Assembly (NCBI GenBank): GCA_950295325.1
Contig: OX485805.1
Span: 23,673,501 to 23,737,500, forward strand
DNA from: Polytrichum commune
Taxonomy: Eukaryota; Streptophyta; Polytrichopsida; Polytrichales; Polytrichaceae
Direction: 5' to 3'
DNA length: 64,000 nt
The notes beneath the pieces are model-generated. The model searched no databases and was not told the origin of the DNA. It worked only from the letters and a program-made list of their open reading frames with translations. Positions 1 through 41,941 of this stretch are shown piece by piece. Each line of letters begins with the position of its first letter. The first letter of the stretch is position 1. The position numbers and the translations under genes are program-made.

Positions 1-2900
1 GGGAAAACAAAATATTAAAAAAAAAAATCGGCCAATGGCTGATTTTCAGCCTTACGGCTCCCTTGATTTCCGTTGAGTCGAGCATTTTGCCTCGCCTCAA
101 CGGAAAACCCGTTGGACCATGGCACATTATCCAAATGGCAGATTTTAGTAGTTTTTGGGGACCTCAAAGTTAGTGGTCATTCTCCTTTTTTCAAGGTAGT
201 GTAAAGCCAAATGGGACCAAGAGCACTTTACTCTCCAATCATAGATTTTAGAATTTCATGGTCATGGCTCTTGGTCCATAGTGTAAACCGCCCCTGAGTC
301 AACGTTGGCACTTGTACTTCCTCTTAAAGTTATCTTGGTACATCTTCTAACTCCTCTTGCATCTCTCTCTCTACGTCTTCTATCTCGTCTTTAATAACTC
401 TCTACATGTTTCTCTATTGCACATACATGGTTCAAGGTACCACTAAGGCACATCACACTCTCTAAACCTTTGACATTGGAATGTTTGTCTCTAAATTCTC
501 ACGTAACGACAACAAACTTCCCTCTCCAAACGATATCTTACAAGTTTTCATTTTACATTCATCCACGACCTAATCTATGATGCCAACTTGTGATGAACCC
601 TTGGAATCACTACAATAACTCGTGTGGAGCGACACAAGGGATGTGAACACTTAACTTTCAATGCATGAGCAAAATGCTTTGAATTATGCCTTATAATAGA
701 GTTGTGGCTTTGTCATAAGCTCAAACAACCCAATCACAAGAGAGACAACAACAAAAAAACGATCTCCTCTCTGAGCTCGTTCTTATAAGTTAGTTCAGTT
801 TTCTATCCATAATTCTATCTTCACTTCGATAAAATGGCTAATGCAATTCCACTTCCAGTCATTATGAGTATCATCATCCTTTTTTTCATCTATCAATAGA
901 TATAGAATACCCTCTTTGAAACAATCTCCTCCAAGTCAAGCCAATATTGTTATTTATTTTGACATGCATCAATAATTTCATACCAAATAAGCACACAATA
1001 CATCTTGAGGTGAAGGCTTCACTTTCTCCATTTAAACCATTCCTTTTAAAGGTGAAAACCCACTTCACTATAATTGTATGCTTGTAATTTGTTGAGTTGA
1101 ATTTACTTAAAAAAACAATGAAAGACTCTTAATATGACTCATGTGAGTGGAATACATCACAATCTCATAGGGTGTGTGTATACTAAACTTTCTTCATTCT
1201 ATATGCAGATGTTGACGCAGTTGCATTGATTGCGTGAACTCCAATGGTTCTTGATGGCAGTGTTTTGGCAGGGCCAAGGTTGAGGACTCCATTGGTGGGT
1301 GGTTGGTGGAAGGGGGGGGGGGGTTGAGGAGGTAAGAAATATTATTTATTATCTATACTAGACAAAGTTCGTTAGGCTCATTGAATGAATAATGTTTATT
1401 CCTTTGTAACTTTTTTGGGACCAAATATGAATGTAAAATATATTTCAACAAATAAGTTAGAAAACACACTCACCCATTTTCACATGACTCCACATGTAAG
1501 TAAGACATGGGGTCGGGGAAGTTTTTTTTTTTTTTTAATTTTTTTTGGGGGGGGGGGGAGGGGGATGTGATTGAGGGTTAATGTGACTATGCTCAAAGTG
1601 AAGCGTCCCTCATTCATGTCAATTATGCAATACTGGCACATTTCCCTCTTTCTCTTTATATATGAAGATTAAGGGGTAAGGGTTAAAGGGTATGGGGTTG
1701 AAAGTTAAAGGGATGCAATAGAATAGAAGAAGAAGAAGTTCAAAGTGTTTTTGCAAACAATACCATCTTCACAATCAATAATCATACGCCTGAGTCGTAC
1801 ATGATGTGTTGACATGGGTTCAAACTAAGGAGATTATATAGGTGAAAGTTTAATCAATTACGGCACAAGATGTACATTATCAAATAATGGCCCTTAAATG
1901 GACACTTTTAGCTCTACACTTACTTATCGTAAGACACAACTAGTATAAAATGACTATGTGTATCTTTAGCAATAAATCCAAAAGTCTTTGCCCATTTTTC
2001 CTTCTCGAAACGAAAGATGACATCGACTGTGCAAAGTGTGGCATGATCGTGATTTGAGAACCTCTTCATGATGAGCTTTCTCCTCCTTTTTGGTGTTTGA
2101 CTTGAGACGTGGATTGATTGGTTGAAATCGTGAGTTTCATAATATGACTTTGTAAGTCAACAAACTTGATACTTTGTGTATATACTAACATTCCCGACGT
2201 TTGAGTAGACTTGTGCATTTATATTGAGAAAACATCTTTTCTTTGCATGAGAAGTATCTTAGCTAACTTTTTACACCTATTGATGTAACCCAATGTAATT
2301 TTGACAACCATGATAAGTTTGGTCAATGTAATTTTTCTTGACCCATGCTAAATTTTAGTCTACAATATTATATGTTCAAATGGGAACACAAAATCATTTC
2401 ATATGTAACATAAATTAGCATGGGTGAGAAATACTATCACATTGTACGAAAAAATTGTAATTATTTTGTTGAACAATCTAACAATGTATATTTCAATATT
2501 AAGAGCTCATTGATTTATAAGCCAACCCACGCTAAGTTTTAAACAAAGTATTAGGTGGGAAAGGTGTAGCTATACTTTGATCCTAATTAAGAAGAGTGAA
2601 AGAATACAAAATGTTTCCTTAATATTGGATTGAATTGAAAGTGAATGGAAGGACGGGACTTGAGAACAAGTTTTATGAGGTTAAAGAAGAGAATGCACTT
2701 CATGCATTGAATCATAACATAACACTACTCAACACTAATACAAAGAATTTTGTAAAACTTATCCTCCCCTTATGCTAAGCCACTTATGCGAAACGAACAA
2801 TACTCAACTCAAATATTGTCCACTCTCCAGGGTGAGTAGTTAGGCGGGCCATACACGATGTTCCAATACCGGAAATGGATACTGATTTTAATATAGAATT
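1..2900. other. gene-free AT-rich intergenic DNA
   Basis: I see no credible coding region. The stretch contains homopolymer runs (G run near 1313-1323; T run then G run near 1523-1560). A weak match at about 160-295 resembles the end of repeat family A: a 'catggtcatggctcttgg' stretch followed by a degraded 'gtgtaaaccgccc' end. Short reading frames here have no recognisable motifs. Confidence 0.6.
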
Positions 2901-2907
2901 TGAGTAC

Positions 2908-4060
2908 CAATCAACTAGCACGTCTGTCATGTTAAGCTTGACATTGGTTGTGCAAGTTGCCGCAAATGCAAGGCTAGCTGAGTGGAGATTCTATGCCCCT
3001 CATTTATGACCAACTTTGCATACACTAGATTAGCCTTCCTCGTTTACAATAGGCATGAACATAGAGGTTGTATAATGTTATGAATGTTGAATGGTTTGAT
3101 AATTTAATAGTGCCGTACATTTTTAATCACTTGGGGACAAAACATCAAATTTGATGACCAACTAGCACGTATGCCACATGAAGCTTGACATTGGTTGTGC
3201 AAGTTGCCACAAACGCAAGGTTAGCTGAGTGGAGAATCTACGCCCCTCATTCATGACCAACTTTTCATACACTAGAGTAGCCATCCTTGTTTACAATAGA
3301 CATGAACATAGAGGTTGTAGGCCACTCATAGTTTATAACGTTATGAACGTCGAATGGTTTGATAATTTTATACAGTGTCGTACATTTTTAATCGCCCCTC
3401 ATTTATGACCAACTTTGCATACACTAGATTAGCCTTCCTTGTTTACAACATGCATGAACATGGAGGTTGTATAACGTTATGAATGTCGAATGGTTTGATA
3501 ATTTAATATAGTGTCATACATTTCTAATCACTTGGGGGAAAAAACATCAAATTCACCAACCAACTAGCACGTTTGCCACGTGGAGCTTGACATTGGTTGG
3601 GCAAGTTGCCACAAACGCTCGGCTAGCCGAGTGGAGAATCTACGCCCCTCATTTATGACCAACTTTGCATACACTAGATTAGCCTTCCTTGTTTACAACA
3701 AGCTTGAACACATAGGTGATGTAACGTCATGAATGTCGAATGGTTTGATAATTTAATATAATGTCATACATGTTTAATCACTTGGAGGAAAAAAACATCA
3801 AATTCGCCAACCAACTAGCACGTCTGCCATGTGGAGCTTGATATTGGTTGTGCAAGTTGCCACAAACGCATGGCTAGCCGAGTGGAGAATCTACGCCCCT
3901 CATTTATGACCAACTTTGCATACACTAGATTAGCCTTCCTTGTTTACAACAGGCTTGAACATAGAGGTAATGTAACGTCATGAATATCGAATGGTTTGAT
4001 AATTTAATAATGTCGTATATTTTCAATCACTTGGGGGAAAATAACATCGAATTCGTAAAG
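2908..4060. repeat. tandem repeat array, unit about 250 bp, about 4.6 copies
   Basis: The phrase 'caactagcacgt' begins units at about 2911, 3158, 3561 and 3812. It is followed each time by 'gagcttgacattggttg', 'ctagc.gagtggagaatctacg', 'ccaactttgcatacacta' and 'gaatggtttgataattta'. A fifth, incomplete unit starts at about 3393, directly after the 'tttttaatcg' end of unit 2, so it lacks its first part. Spacings are 247-251 bp where units are complete. Units differ by scattered substitutions, so the array is not recent. No coding potential is seen. It ends about 350 bp before the GC-rich leader of the PARP16-like gene. Confidence 0.9.
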
Positions 4061-4853: not shown

Positions 4854-7800
4854 ATGGAGAAGGAGGCGGAGCGCAGGGAGCTGGAGAAATCTATTTACGA
4901 GGCTTGCCGCCGATCTTTGGAAGGGTGTGACTTTCTTGTGTCAGCGTTTGTGCAAGCCTTGAACAGCTACCGCCGGTCATCCGGTAAGCTGTTTCGCTCG
5001 GCAGGCATGGTCAATTGGTCATGGCGGCCGTATATGTGCGTGTGTGTGCGTGTTAAGAGAGAGTGAGGGTCAATTTTAATGTAGAGGAGGAAGTGAGCAT
5101 GTCTTGAGGATTTTCCAACTGACTCTGTTCGAGCACGGTCAATTCGGTCTGGCAATGTCGTGGTGAAGTCTGTGTGGAATCCTATGTTGTGAAGTCGAGG
5201 TTTAGTTGCTTGCTTTTGTGAGACGTATGTACATCTGGGTTGAAGTGTTAATGTGACATTCTTCGCTCCGGAGGATTGTTGTATGAGTAGAATTGCTTGC
5301 TAAGGCGTAATTGCGATGATTATGTGACAAGGATAGGGGACGCTTATTGGTTTAAAAGCTTTTTAACATTGTTGTTTGTTTGTATGTTTGATGTGCTTTG
5401 GTTAACAGTGTGCACTCCATTCCCGTTAGCGTTATTTCCAACCTCCGGTGATTTCAACGACAAGGACTTCGCAGCTGCTGCAGCTGCTGTTCAGACTTTC
5501 CCGGCATTGCAACATATAGCTTTGAAGAGTCAGAGTGTTGATGAGCAGAACAGCCGTATAGGGAACGAGAACGACCGCACTCCTACTACAGGTATCCTTG
5601 TAAATATTGCACTCATCGGGACAATGTTGCAGTTTTTACTAACTTACAGCTAAATTTTTCCCCTTACAACTCTTAGGCCACATCTTGTGAGCATGTCCGC
5701 CACTGTTTTACTTCACTTCAGCCTATACCACCTTAGGCGAATTCTTGTCGACTGCGGTGAAAATGGCGACTCTCGAGATTCTACCACATCCCGTTTGAGT
5801 GTTTGTGTAGGCCTCTTTGTGTATCAGCCTTATGTTATGGGTATAACATTGGCAAGCAGCCTTTGGCATAGCATCGATGGGTAGAGTGCTGCTCAGAGGA
5901 TATCACCCCCTGAATAAATTGACATTTTATTACTTCCGAGTCTACGTTAAACCCCTTGGATTGTGGGAATGGTTCTTGTTGCGATTTTCTCCAACTTGAC
6001 GGAGTCTGCTACTTCTCTTAGATACGTTGGTGGATCGGTGCTCTAGATGAATTTGAACGTGTGGTATATTTGGATGTGTGTGAATGTTTTTTAAGTCACA
6101 GAGCATGGATGGTCATTTCCTAAATCAATGGATCGATGGGTGTTTGGCAGACAAGTCTGCAGCAACAATACGCGGGGAATCTTCAAGTTCATCAAAAGCC
6201 CACGATGGCTACACCGGTGGTTGCATTGAATCACCCATCTACTCGTCATGTTCACCAAGTGCCACCAGTCACATGCCGCTTGGGGCTCTGAAACTGCTTG
6301 ATTGGGTCTTACGTTACCGGCATCAGATCGAACTTGTGAAGGATCCAGCAACAGAGTTATCCGGCCTTTTCCCACTGGCTTCTTCTCCATGGGCTCCATT
6401 CAGAAGGGAGGTGTCATCTGAAGCGAGTGTCACACCACATTATGTTTTGAAGGTAGGGGATTTTGTCTATCCACTGCCAGTTTGAAATGAATAGACTTGA
6501 ATTCATGTACTTGAGTGAGAATTATTTTTCCACTCATCACGTCTCAATGTTCCTAAGCACACAATTCTCAAATGCTTACCTTATTGCAGGTTATTGATAA
6601 CAAGGACAATAAGAGCATCAAGGAGGAGCCTTGGCCCGAGGCTGTTAGAGAGGGGTCTGATACTATTTTAGCGTTCCATGGAACTTCTGCAGAAAATCTG
6701 CACAGCATTCTCCGATGTGGTACTTTCCTACACTGTTCTTCAATGACTCAGATAGGATAGCGTAATAATCTGCACTGGACTTGACAGGGCGAGTAAGAGG
6801 TGCCTGGGTCTGTTAATTGATGAGAATCAAGTATGATTCCTTCTATGCTGACATTGTCATCAGTATTCCGTTTGTATGAGCATTAACTCATTTTGTGTTT
6901 CGTGCTGTTTAACATGTTTATACACTCCTCTCTTTTCTTAGTACCAAATTTAGAAACAAATACTCACAGTGTGAAGAATTGTTGATTTGTTGAAGGATTT
7001 ATCAACCATATCTCATAATCACATCAACAATTACTCATAATTTGCTGATGTTTGAGGAATAACATGTTCACAATAATATGCTCACTGGTTACATGAGCAT
7101 CAACAATGATTGTCACTTTTGATTGATCAGTTTGCAAAGCTTGTTAGGTACTACATAAGGAAGGAACATTTATTGTTTGTAGATGTATTTACTATGCCTT
7201 AGCAAAGACAGGACGCTTCTTCCATAGAGAAAGGTTACTTAAAATTTCTTTTGCTTATCTTTGGAACTGGTGGATGTCTTTGATTTCTTTTATTTGAAAA
7301 TTGAGTATTTTGTACACATTCTAGACAATAATTTGCTTGAAAATACCTCCATAGGATTCTTTCTTAGGAAGTGATGAAGTCAGTGGTGATGTAGTGGAAG
7401 GTGACTTCCTTCATTCAGATTGTTGTAGATGGCCTCTAATTAAATGATCTGCCTTTATTTGACGATTGCTGCATGTTTGACTCTTCTGATTTATTGGTAT
7501 TTTTGATCTCTGTTGCTTCTCTATGCTTTTTTGCTCACTTTTTATTAGAGGATGTAACGTGCTAATCCTTCCATCAGTCTCTCCTGAATGTTATTTCTTT
7601 CCCCCCTGCTTACTGGTATTGGGGTGTCTTCAACAGTCAGTTTCTGACACAATTTCTGCCTTTGTTGTGTAAACAGGGCTCTTGAATATGAGCAACACCC
7701 AGCTTCAACGCAATGGGGCAATTTTTGGAGAGGGTGTGTATCTATCAACAGATCCTGCAGTTGCCTACAGTTTTTGCAAAGCTGGAGATGGGTGGGAACA

Positions 7801-8272
7801 GTCCTACTTTGGGTCGAGAGTGAGATATCTACTTGTTTGTGAAGTAGCAAGACCCTCCCATCACAGTGATTCATCATCATCTGGTGCTGCACGCAATCCT
7901 GGTAGCCACTTGAGGAAAGAAGTGAAATCGAACGGTGTTCCACAAAACTACATCCTTGTGCAGAACAGCGACTTGGTGAAGATCCGTTTCATATTTGTGT
8001 ACAGTGAGCCATCAAGAGTTCAAAGGCGTATTGGATCACCACCAATGGCCAAACCCAACAGGGTGACCCGACGCCCCAGCAGTCAAAGCACTTGTGCAGC
8101 TGGTCACACGGAGAATCTGAGGCTTGTTCAAGCATTCAGACGAATAGACTGGTGCAAAGCTTTCATTGTTTTGTATATTGCATTGTTGGCTGGGGTTGGG
8201 CTGCTGAGATCAAATACCGGCAAGTATGGGAAGGGTTCGTTTGTTCATCATTTCTGGCCTTTCTACCAGTAG
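4854..8272 (+). CDS. PARP16: PARP16-like mono-ADP-ribosyltransferase, tail-anchored
   Basis: Exons, joined by me at GT-AG sites with matching phases: 4854-4983, 5409-5599, 6102-6452, 6590-6719 and 7677-8272, giving 465 aa. The first ATG is at 4854; the frame runs upstream only through non-ATG codons. The N-terminal alpha-helical part (residues 15-60, with 'ALNSYRRSS' and 'TPFP') and the later 'LLDWVL' segment (exon 3) align by eye with animal PARP16. The catalytic fold has His254 (FHGTS), Tyr289 (FGEGVYLS) and Tyr376 (FIFVYS). This is the H-Y-Y triad of mono-ADP-ribosyl transferases, with no catalytic Glu. A single hydrophobic segment at about 428-444 and a short C-terminal tail ending HHFWPFYQ match the tail anchor that puts human PARP16 in the ER and nuclear membrane. 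It is longer than the human enzyme (322 aa) because of a Ser-rich insertion in exon 3 and a longer linker before the anchor. In animals PARP16 modifies ER stress kinases; that role here is inference only. Identification is strong; the exon 2/3 junction (donor gtaaat) is the least certain. Confidence 0.88.
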
Positions 8273-38654: not shown

Positions 38655-39371
38655 TTAGGGGGGTGCAACGGGATTTTTTTTGTTATCGAGTTTTCTTTTA
38701 TTTAAAACGAGGTATGTGAGATATTTGATGGCATTTTGGTGTATGTTTTTCATGAGGATTTTGATATTAGATTTTGGGATTTTGAGGTCTTCTAATTTTT
38801 TGATGGAGTGTTCGTGTATGGCACCTCTAACTCCTGCTGTGATGGTTATAAGAGGGTTTATTTTCCATCCCTTGCTTTGTATAGTGTTGATTAATGGATC
38901 GTATTTGGCATGTTTGTGTGTTATGGCTTGTTCTGGGAATCTGTCGTGACAGTACGTGAATTCAATGAATTGGATGGTTCGTGCGTGGGATGGTAGCATG
39001 GGTGTTGGGGTGTGGTTAGGGGCTCCTATAATACATAGGATGTCGGGTCTTAGTCTAGCGTGACACTGACACCCGGTTTGAGGGCATAGACATTCGATGA
39101 GCCATTCGGGGACTGTTTGTTCTTGCTTGTTGTTGTTGATATTACCTGCATTTGTTAGTGTGTAATATCTGGTGTGTTTGTTGGCTTGGAGTGTTTGGAT
39201 GATGAGATGTACTGCCTTGTTGTGGCGTGCTATTCTTAGGCCCTTTAAGTATGGGTGTTCGCACGTTGAGAGTAAGTGTGGCCATGTATCCCTTTCATTT
39301 TTACGGCATAAGGTACAGTTTGGGTTTTGAAATTTGAGGGGCCAGAAAATATTCTTTCTATGGTTACCCAT
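38655..39371 (-). pseudogene. LINE ORF2 tail with CCHC zinc knuckle, frameshifted
   Basis: It continues the RNase H protein in a shifted frame; the two frames overlap by 8 bases. A C-X2-C-X9-H-X4-C knuckle (CTLCRKNERDTWPHLLSTC) is the typical C-terminal nucleic-acid-binding motif of LINE ORF2 proteins. The downstream tail (EWLIECLCPQTGC, LCIIGAPN, INPLITITAGVRGAI) is matched closely by the second fragment at 54.8-55.3 kb. Confidence 0.85.
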
Positions 39372-41616
39372 GTATTGGGCATATTTCGTATTGGGTGATT
39401 TGGGCGTCCGTTATTTTATTGTTTTTCCAAAAGTGGTTGGAGAGTTTGTGGCTTATTTGGTCGTTGGATAGCCATTTGTCTACATATGGGTGTTTATGTT
39501 GGGCCAGCCTAATTTCTTGTTTTTCGTGTGTTTTTGTGATGAATGTGTGCAAGTTGCGGATTGCCCCATTACGTGTGGCTGTGGGACAACTTGCTAGCCA
39601 ATATGGTGTAGCGTGTGCGATGTGTATATGGGGTGTGGGAGTGGGTTTTTCTATATTTGTGCCTTCGTTGGCTAGCGCATCGGCTATTTCATTTCCTTTG
39701 ATGCCCGTGTGGGCACGTACTTTATGTATATGTACTAAGTGTGGTGTTAGATAAATTTGGTGTATTATGGCGGCTATGAGGATTTTGTCCGGGTGGTGGT
39801 GTTGTGAGGTTGGGTGTTGTATATGATTACTAAGTAGATATATGCTATTAAGGCTATCTGTAAAGATGTGTGTTTCGATTTTTGTGACTTGAATGGTTTT
39901 GACTGCTATGAATATAGCATTTAATTCTGCTCTAAGTATGTTTTGATATCCTGGTAATCGTTCTGCTATACGGATGTTTGCGTTGGGGCTATATACTCCT
40001 GAACCTGCGATATCACCCTCTATTTGACCTTCGGAGTTCTTAGTTGGTGGAATAAATGAGCCATCTGTGTACATGCAATGTTGTGGGTGGAATTTGGGGG
40101 GGTGTTGGTGGTAATATTTAATGGGGAGGTTTGATTGGGGGATTGTTGGTGGGGGAGGGATGTTTTTTATGGGGGCGTTTTTCCATATGTTTGAGAATTT
40201 AATGTGGTAATTTGGCGTTGTGGGTTTGATGGGGAATGTGTCTATGGGTGCGTTGATGGTATGTTCTAGTACTTGTGCGAGGTCTTGTGGGGTTTTTAGG
40301 CTTGGTGTGAGGTGGGCGTGGTTATGTATACATAGTATTGTTGTGAGCGAGGGTTCCACGTATTGGTAGTATTTTGGCCATTCCGGCGTAGGGTTATATA
40401 GTATGGTATGCGGAGGGATGGTTGCGAGGGTGTGTATGTCGCCACTTGTGGTAAGTGGGATTTGTTGTGTGGTCCAGTCGTTATGGTTGATTATGAGTAT
40501 GGTGATCGTGTTTGAGTCTTCTTTGGCCGCCATTCTAGCCCAGTGGATGGCTTCAATGGTTGTTTTATGGTCTGTGGGGTAGGCTAAACCAATGCCTTTC
40601 CATCTAGATATTTGTGCGTGTCCTAGGGAGCCAAATATTATGTCTCGGTTATGGGGTGAGTGATATTGTGTGAGTTGTGTGGGGCATGTGAGTGGGGATG
40701 AATAGTAGGAGTGCGTGATTTTGAGGGAGTTTATTAATGTTGTGATAATTGTCGGGTGTATTGTATGGTGCATGTTTTGGGGTTGTATGTTTTTTGGCTT
40801 TCTTTTGGGGAGTATGGTTATGTATCTTTGTATTAGCCAAAGTATTTCAGTTTCAAAGTTTTGTGGTGGGGGTTGGAGGGCTTTTATAATTTGTGAGAAG
40901 TGGTGGTAAGAAAATTGGTTCCATAGCCATTGTAGCCTTTCTGTAGTGATGGTGGCCATGTAGTTTCCTTTTTGGTCATATATGTTGGCTTCGGAGTTTT
41001 GTAGTTGGATGGTTGGTTGGTTTACTTGAATGTCTTTATCCGGGTTGCATTCTTGTATGGATAATTTTAGGTTGGTGATGTGAAGAGGGGGGTGTATGAA
41101 TTTGTTGTCTTTTGATTGTATGTGATTGAGGCAATTAGCATATGTGTGGGTGGTTAATAGTTCAGCTTGCTTTGTGTGATATTGTGTAATACATAGTATG
41201 TTATGTTCTAGAAATATATTATCCGGGTGTAGTAGTTCTACCTCACTTCTCCATTGTTGTGTGATGCCTTGTGGAGTTTGCCATTGGCAAAGGTAGTTCG
41301 TCCTTATTGCTTGTGCACCCCATTTGTCTTTTTTGGTGGAGGTCTTTTCTTTTATTATTGTTTGGATTGCTTGTCCTAGGGGGGGGATATTCACCATGCC
41401 CTCGCTTTGTGTTGGTGTTTGTTGTATTGTGTTTGTAGAGTTTGTGGGTGGGGGGGGGAACATTATTGTTGCTTGTTGGAGAGCCTCCTTGATGGTTTTG
41501 GGTATGTGTTTGTAAATGGATTGAAATTCTTTCGGGGTTAGTATGGCTTTGGTAGTAGAGTTTTGGATTTGTATTAGTGTGGTAATGCCGTATATGTTAA
41601 GTAGATATTCTGGCAT
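39364..41616 (-). pseudogene. LINE C-terminal ORF with RNase H domain
   Basis: A 750-codon open frame. Its last third is an RNase H domain: Asp518 in YTDGS, Glu564 in RAELNAIF, Asp587 in FTDSLNS, and a final ADALAN motif with a preceding conserved His region (VRAHTGIKGNEIADAL). These provide the acidic metal-binding residues that degrade the RNA strand during target-primed reverse transcription. The N-terminal 450 residues are rich in Thr, Ile, Pro and His and show no motif I can name. The frame ends at TAA in 39364-39366 because of a one-base frameshift; coding continues in another frame. It is the surviving 3' portion of a larger LINE ORF2. Confidence 0.85.
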
Positions 41617-41941
41617 AACATTCTTTCCAGTTTACTACAAAATTTTAGACATTAGAAAGCATTTAAGGTGACTCTCAACCAAATCGTGTCATTTGTTTAG
41701 TACTGCTTGAACTTTGATATCTATGTAGTTTATGGGATTATGCATGGCAAATTCTCATCCTTATGATGGACGTCTTGAAAAACAGATTTTTTTTCTTCCA
41801 ATTTCCAATCTCTAGGTCATGTCTTTGGAAAGTTGGTTCTTCATGCACAATACTGTTGTGCCTTGCCAAAGAGGATCCCTGAAAATACAAATAAGGTAAG
41901 TAGTACTACTTCTTACAGGTGCACTGTGACCATGTAGAATC

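Follow-up and report, generated by a model that had tools for sequence, protein, structure and literature searches.

A PARP16-type gene with a helical N-terminal domain and a predicted C-terminal membrane anchor in the moss Polytrichum commune

The 64,000-nucleotide stretch of Polytrichum commune DNA analysed here (the window) corresponds to C3:23673501-23737500 of the source genome (G000; 407.8 Mb in 64 contigs) and carries a five-exon gene on the forward strand at window positions 4854-8272. All introns have GT-AG borders, and the reading frame is open throughout and encodes 446 amino acids. Exon 1 (4854-4983, +) comprises the ATG and residues 1-43 plus one nucleotide, is defined by its open frame and a GTAAGC donor, and contains the beginning of an ARTD15_N domain. 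This domain continues over the exon 1/2 junction into exon 2 (5409-5591, +; alternative end 5599), which was delimited by open frame and splice sites. Exon 3 (6151-6452, +; alternative start 6102) encodes a linker and is defined by its open frame and AG/GT borders. The catalytic domain starts in exon 4 (6590-6719, +), which includes the triad histidine H235 at 6677-6679, and continues in exon 5 (7677-8272, +) with Y270 (7739-7741) and Y340 (7949-7951), followed by a predicted membrane anchor, a short tail and the stop codon TAG at 8270-8272.

A first-pass annotation of this DNA had proposed a five-exon gene, and its coordinates, strand and GT-AG borders were all correct. The length of 465 amino acids given there was recovered by joining an exon 2 ending at 5599 to an exon 3 starting at 6102 (intron 2 at 5600-6101 instead of 5592-6150), the 446-residue protein being a second in-frame model. 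The two versions differ exclusively within a serine-rich linker and are equally compatible with the data. Homology spans junction 1 (residue boundary 43/44, within ARTD15_N) and junction 4 (248/249, within the PARP domain), and junctions 2 and 3 as well as exon 3 are defined solely by open frame and splice sites. For residues 106-226, mostly encoded by exon 3, comparison with the matching stretch of human PARP16 gave no signal, as 1110 of 2000 shuffles equalled the best local score. The lack of homology support for exon 3 and two junctions would be in line with a decayed or silent copy from which no protein is made. However, the five exons are in phase without any stop or frameshift, the triad is present and a single copy was found in the genome search, which renders decay or silence unlikely. 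The gene is real, intact and well classified.

The helical N-terminal domain of PARP16, ARTD15_N, was identified at 4905-5548 (+; residues 18-90), split by intron 1, with a Pfam match (PF18084) of E=2e-12 and 47.5 bits at a cut-off of 26.3. The PARP catalytic domain (PF00644) covers residues 220-306 with 1.3e-13 and 51.3 bits (cut-off 26.7). Both matches are far above chance; one further Pfam entry appeared up to E 1 and stayed under its own cut-off, and a search of the 465-residue model against NCBIfam gave no match. The N-terminal stretch was also aligned with human PARP16 (4f0d) by phmmer at an i-Evalue of 0.0034. When the human N-terminal stretch alone was used in tblastn, the window was hit at E 0.039, and the same value was obtained for L015, a chlorophyll-protein locus without relation to PARPs. 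Because this signal is weak, the claim of an N-terminal domain is based on the Pfam profile and the phmmer alignment. Of the four sequences listed from solved structures up to E 1, those at 1.7e-21 and 1.9e-21 are human PARP16 and the remaining two have E values of 0.17 and 0.39, leaving human PARP16 as the sole convincing match.

The residues H235, Y270 and Y340 were aligned opposite H152, Y182 and Y254 of human PARP16, with Y182 presumably being a triad member there as well. H152 and Y254 are described as NAD-binding and predicted catalytic residues of the human enzyme (PMC3372510). Overall identity is low: global alignment with the human chain paired 262 residues, of which 85 are identical, and required 187 gap positions, and the catalytic stretch aligned separately (130 human against 133 moss residues) contained 43 identities. 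Downstream of the catalytic domain, a single transmembrane segment is predicted at 8150-8206 (+; residues 407-425), where 19-residue hydropathy is the highest in the protein (mean 2.12). The sequence after this predicted anchor forms a tail of 21 residues (8207-8269, +; residues 426-446) ending in HHFWPFYQ; in human PARP16, a histidine presumably precedes FW as well. For exon 5 alone, the predicted structure had a mean pLDDT of 43.8 and was not informative. Human PARP16 is a type IV tail-anchored ER protein of 322 amino acids with its anchor at S288-I308 and a tail facing the lumen, and its C terminus, as read from a printed primer, is FWNRAKR (PMC3372510). The moss protein thus has in common with animal PARP16/ARTD15 the helical N-terminal domain, the PARP domain, the H-Y-Y triad, a single C-terminal anchor, which is predicted here, and a short tail with FW near its end. 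In contrast to the human protein, it is longer (446 or 465 amino acids), contains the serine-rich linker between N-terminal and catalytic domains and a longer stretch in front of the anchor, and its tail ends differently. The assignment to the PARP16 type from helical domain to predicted anchor and FW-bearing tail, made earlier from the sequence, therefore agrees with the Pfam domains, the structure match, the hydropathy profile and the tree described below.

Searching the source genome with the window protein recovered, besides the five exons of the gene itself, a single further locus, L003 (5.6e-11), located on the same contig at 47.13 Mb. L003 comprises a 475-residue frame in which a Clade 6 PARP core is joined to an E2 domain of UBE2Q type (1.4e-19); it is the closest relative in the genome, with 35% identity across residues 228-318. 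This raises the alternative that the window gene is paralogous to L003 and encodes a PARP6/8-type member of Clade 6 which acquired its membrane anchor within this lineage. With the catalytic stretch of human PARP16 as query, the window gave the best match (4e-13) among the window and loci L001-L021, followed by L003 (5e-10). In addition, human PARP16 was the only PARP among the best 60 of 256 solved sequences found with L003 (6.6e-7). As L003 likewise selects human PARP16, the best match alone does not separate the two Clade 6 genes. A tree was calculated from partial sequences with human PARP16 as the only other PARP16; L006 was left out since its histidine-bearing exon was unassembled. The window protein, human PARP16 and L003 grouped together with 100/99, apart from the RCD1/SRO and PARP1 rows. 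The tree has 13 rows and 70 columns. In it, the pair of window protein and human PARP16 received 91/88, a value that does not reach the 95/80 mark set by the tool itself, and the path from the window protein to L003 (1.34) was slightly shorter than that to human PARP16 (1.54).

The two moss proteins share the Clade 6 catalytic core, but they differ in several respects which argue against the PARP6/8 alternative. The window protein has ARTD15_N, whereas the open frame of L003, upstream exons of which are unassembled, is without it. The third triad position is Y in the window protein and I in L003 as judged by eye, and where the window protein ends in a predicted membrane anchor, L003 carries its E2 domain at the C terminus. 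No UBC match was found in the window protein by Pfam. A UBC domain has been described in the PARP6/8 homologue of Physcomitrella (PMC4245714) and is reported for some further PARP6/8 homologues, and on account of this E2-type domain and the isoleucine we infer that L003 is PARP6/8-like. The cysteine motif CX2CX9-19CX4C, which the same survey places ahead of the PARP domain in PARP6/8 homologues, occurs in neither model of the window protein, but it is also missing in the partial L003 frame and is, therefore, not discriminating. Taken together, a PARP6/8 identity of the window gene is improbable.

It was further considered that the gene may have been acquired by transfer from an animal or another eukaryote. 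A survey from 2010, in which Clade 6 members are described from both chlorophytes and Physcomitrella, called the PARP16 subclade 6C animal-specific (PMC2964712), and a 2014 survey states that the helical domain is always absent from non-animal PARP16 (PMC4245714), so that a full-length copy in a moss could look foreign. However, the gene has four introns of 137-957 bases whose G+C content (36-44%) is lower than that of the coding sequence (49%), and its low identity with human PARP16 does not point to a recent transfer. In addition, the 2014 survey lists PARP16 in Chlorella and Volvox; as both these and the Clade 6 proteins of chlorophytes and Physcomitrella are already in print, transfer is unnecessary as an explanation, and we regard it as quite unlikely. 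The first-pass annotation was right in assigning the PARP16 type, but in view of these published records its interpretation was overstated (PMC2964712; PMC4245714). The PARP16 family and its presence in Viridiplantae are known already. New, as far as the open-licence literature that was searched shows, is a full-length land-plant PARP16 with the helical domain. The green-algal proteins are likewise of PARP16 type within Viridiplantae but, compared here by description only, reportedly do not possess the helical domain which is present in the window protein (PMC4245714). The latter argues against the published statement on non-animal PARP16, which is also in some tension with another passage of the same survey, according to which five of six supergroups have homologues that contain the two characteristic domains (PMC4245714).

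The PARPs usual in plants, PARP1-3 and RCD1/SRO, share the PARP fold superfamily with the window protein but have other accessory domains and another position in the tree; as commonly described, this plant set includes no enzyme of the PARP16 type. Loci of both kinds occur in the source genome: the joined exons of L001 matched PARP1 (2.1e-33), L002 and L006 with their neighbours are by eye broadly of the same kind, and L007 (C2:10.58 Mb) is RCD1-like with a WWE domain and a PARP domain. This would favour an ordinary plant PARP with a chance membrane segment. In the window protein, however, Pfam identified neither WWE and RST nor WGR and PARP regulatory domains, and its third triad residue is Y as opposed to the H-Y-E of PARP1-3. 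The full protein retrieved no structure of PARP1-3 or RCD1/SRO up to E 1, and its middle part alone reached PARP2 at E 0.4 and PARP1 at 1.7. A position inside RCD1/SRO or PARP1-3, which had been named beforehand as speaking against the PARP16 assignment, was looked for in the tree and not seen, the window protein grouping with Clade 6 and apart from the RCD1/SRO and PARP1 rows. Membership in PARP1-3 or RCD1/SRO is contradicted by Pfam domains, structure matches and tree and is very improbable. The gene thus also argues against a view of plant ADP-ribosylation as consisting of PARP1-3 and RCD1/SRO alone; in the main text of a plant review from 2019, PARP16 is named once, among the human enzymes (PMC6479469).

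Among the other PARP loci, L007 retains H and Y as the first two triad residues in the alignment, unlike the Arabidopsis RCD1 and SRO1 rows. L004 (C2:32.29 Mb) is of uncertain kind and lies outside the usual plant kinds; the human proteins closest to its PARP catalytic frame are PARP15, 14 and 12 (3.5e-6 to 1.5e-5). A PF18084 profile search of the source genome gave no match and missed the window gene itself, in which exons split the domain, and control genomes were silent as well, so that this search carries no weight for an absence of paralogues; the PF00644 profile search likewise missed the window gene. In viral and prokaryote contig sets, 6 and 49 stretches matched a pattern and none was confirmed as a relative, which says little on plants.

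Contamination or assembly error, for which nothing in favour was found, deserves hardly any weight: contamination is unlikely because the gene is positioned at 23.68 Mb inside a 59.2-Mb contig with plant-type neighbours, namely an expansin-like and a nucleotide-diphospho-sugar transferase frame among the seven other window frames of at least 150 amino acids, and because the same window contains one representative of an element family that occurs on contigs C1-C7. Contigs C1, C2, C3 and C5 are 77.9, 70.3, 59.2 and 52.9 Mb long, and C4, C6 and C7, as judged from the matches on them, extend to at least 59.1, 40.7 and 40.3 Mb. These seven contigs, which might correspond to the seven chromosomes that would fit Polytrichaceae, therefore account for no less than about 400 of 408 Mb. 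Together with the expansin-like and sugar-transferase frames, the 58 chlorophyll-binding matches in the genome show the host to be a plant. The initial reading of the locus as part of a plant chromosome is thus borne out by the size of the contig, the neighbouring frames and the genome-wide element family.

The reading that we favour, with a probability of roughly 0.7, is that the gene is an orthologue of PARP16 (ARTD15) which was vertically kept in the moss and encodes a tail-anchored mono-ADP-ribosyltransferase of the ER that acts in stress control of secretion. Its vertical descent, ER location, topology, activity, targets and stress role are inferred from sequence and from the animal proteins. 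The C-terminal segment would insert into the ER or nuclear-envelope membrane, leaving the catalytic domain cytosolic and the 21-residue tail luminal. During stress, the H-Y-Y site may transfer single ADP-ribose units from NAD+ to the enzyme itself and to nearby proteins at the ER surface; the helical N-terminal domain would regulate the active site, and the luminal tail would report the state of the lumen. By analogy, IRE1, as in human, and Sec16, as in the fly, are likely candidate targets. In human cells, PARP16 modifies PERK and IRE1 upon ER stress, and mutating its 23-residue tail impairs both modifications, as summarized in a review (PMC12377720). In fly cells, dPARP16 modifies Sec16 upon amino-acid starvation, and neither catalytic mutants nor a form without the membrane segment make Sec bodies (PMC5127640).

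An IRE1-type RNase domain was found in the source genome with two matches at C1:13.48 Mb. The presence of Sec16 is only suggested by one weak domain match (6e-4), and five macrodomain matches were obtained, the corresponding proteins being possible readers or erasers. A more far-reaching proposal, which we put forward tentatively and consider doubtful as a whole, is that mosses possess an entire stress pathway of ER-anchored mono-ADP-ribosylation, in which the luminal tail acts as sensor and IRE1 or Sec16 is the target, and that the helical domain and the FW tail come from an early eukaryote and were later lost in seed plants. If so, a domain described as animal-specific would be ancestral. 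The gene makes it possible to test how old the PARP16 layout is. Mosses can be genetically edited and PERK is not known from plants; in a moss, PARP16 signalling through IRE1 or Sec16 could therefore be studied alone.

Some further features of the window and the genome were recorded. Directly upstream of the gene, a tandem array with units of about 250 bases occupies window positions 2887-4055. The frame representing the element family, 755 amino acids at 39364-41631 on the reverse strand, has an RNase H domain (1.5e-14) and a PCIF1_WW match near threshold (3.1e-7; 30.6 bits at a cut-off of 31.1). In the source genome, where 59 of the 5110 candidates were scored, at least 61 matches were obtained, some of them within frames of more than 2,000 amino acids, and the frame may belong to a mobile-element family carrying a piece of a PCIF1-type protein. 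Contig C8 is plastid DNA (rbcL, psaA/psaB), and its unit length of about 126.25 kb was deduced from an exact overlap of 9,061 bases. Between rpl32 and ndhD, the latter assigned by eye, no frame of the size of cysT or ccsA was seen, with 32,500 of the 124,361 letters examined being N; RpoA is encoded on this plastid DNA. These plastid features might fit a moss that branched off early. At C5:1.75-1.85 Mb, fourteen chlorophyll-binding matches with identical Pfam score lie within 95 kb.
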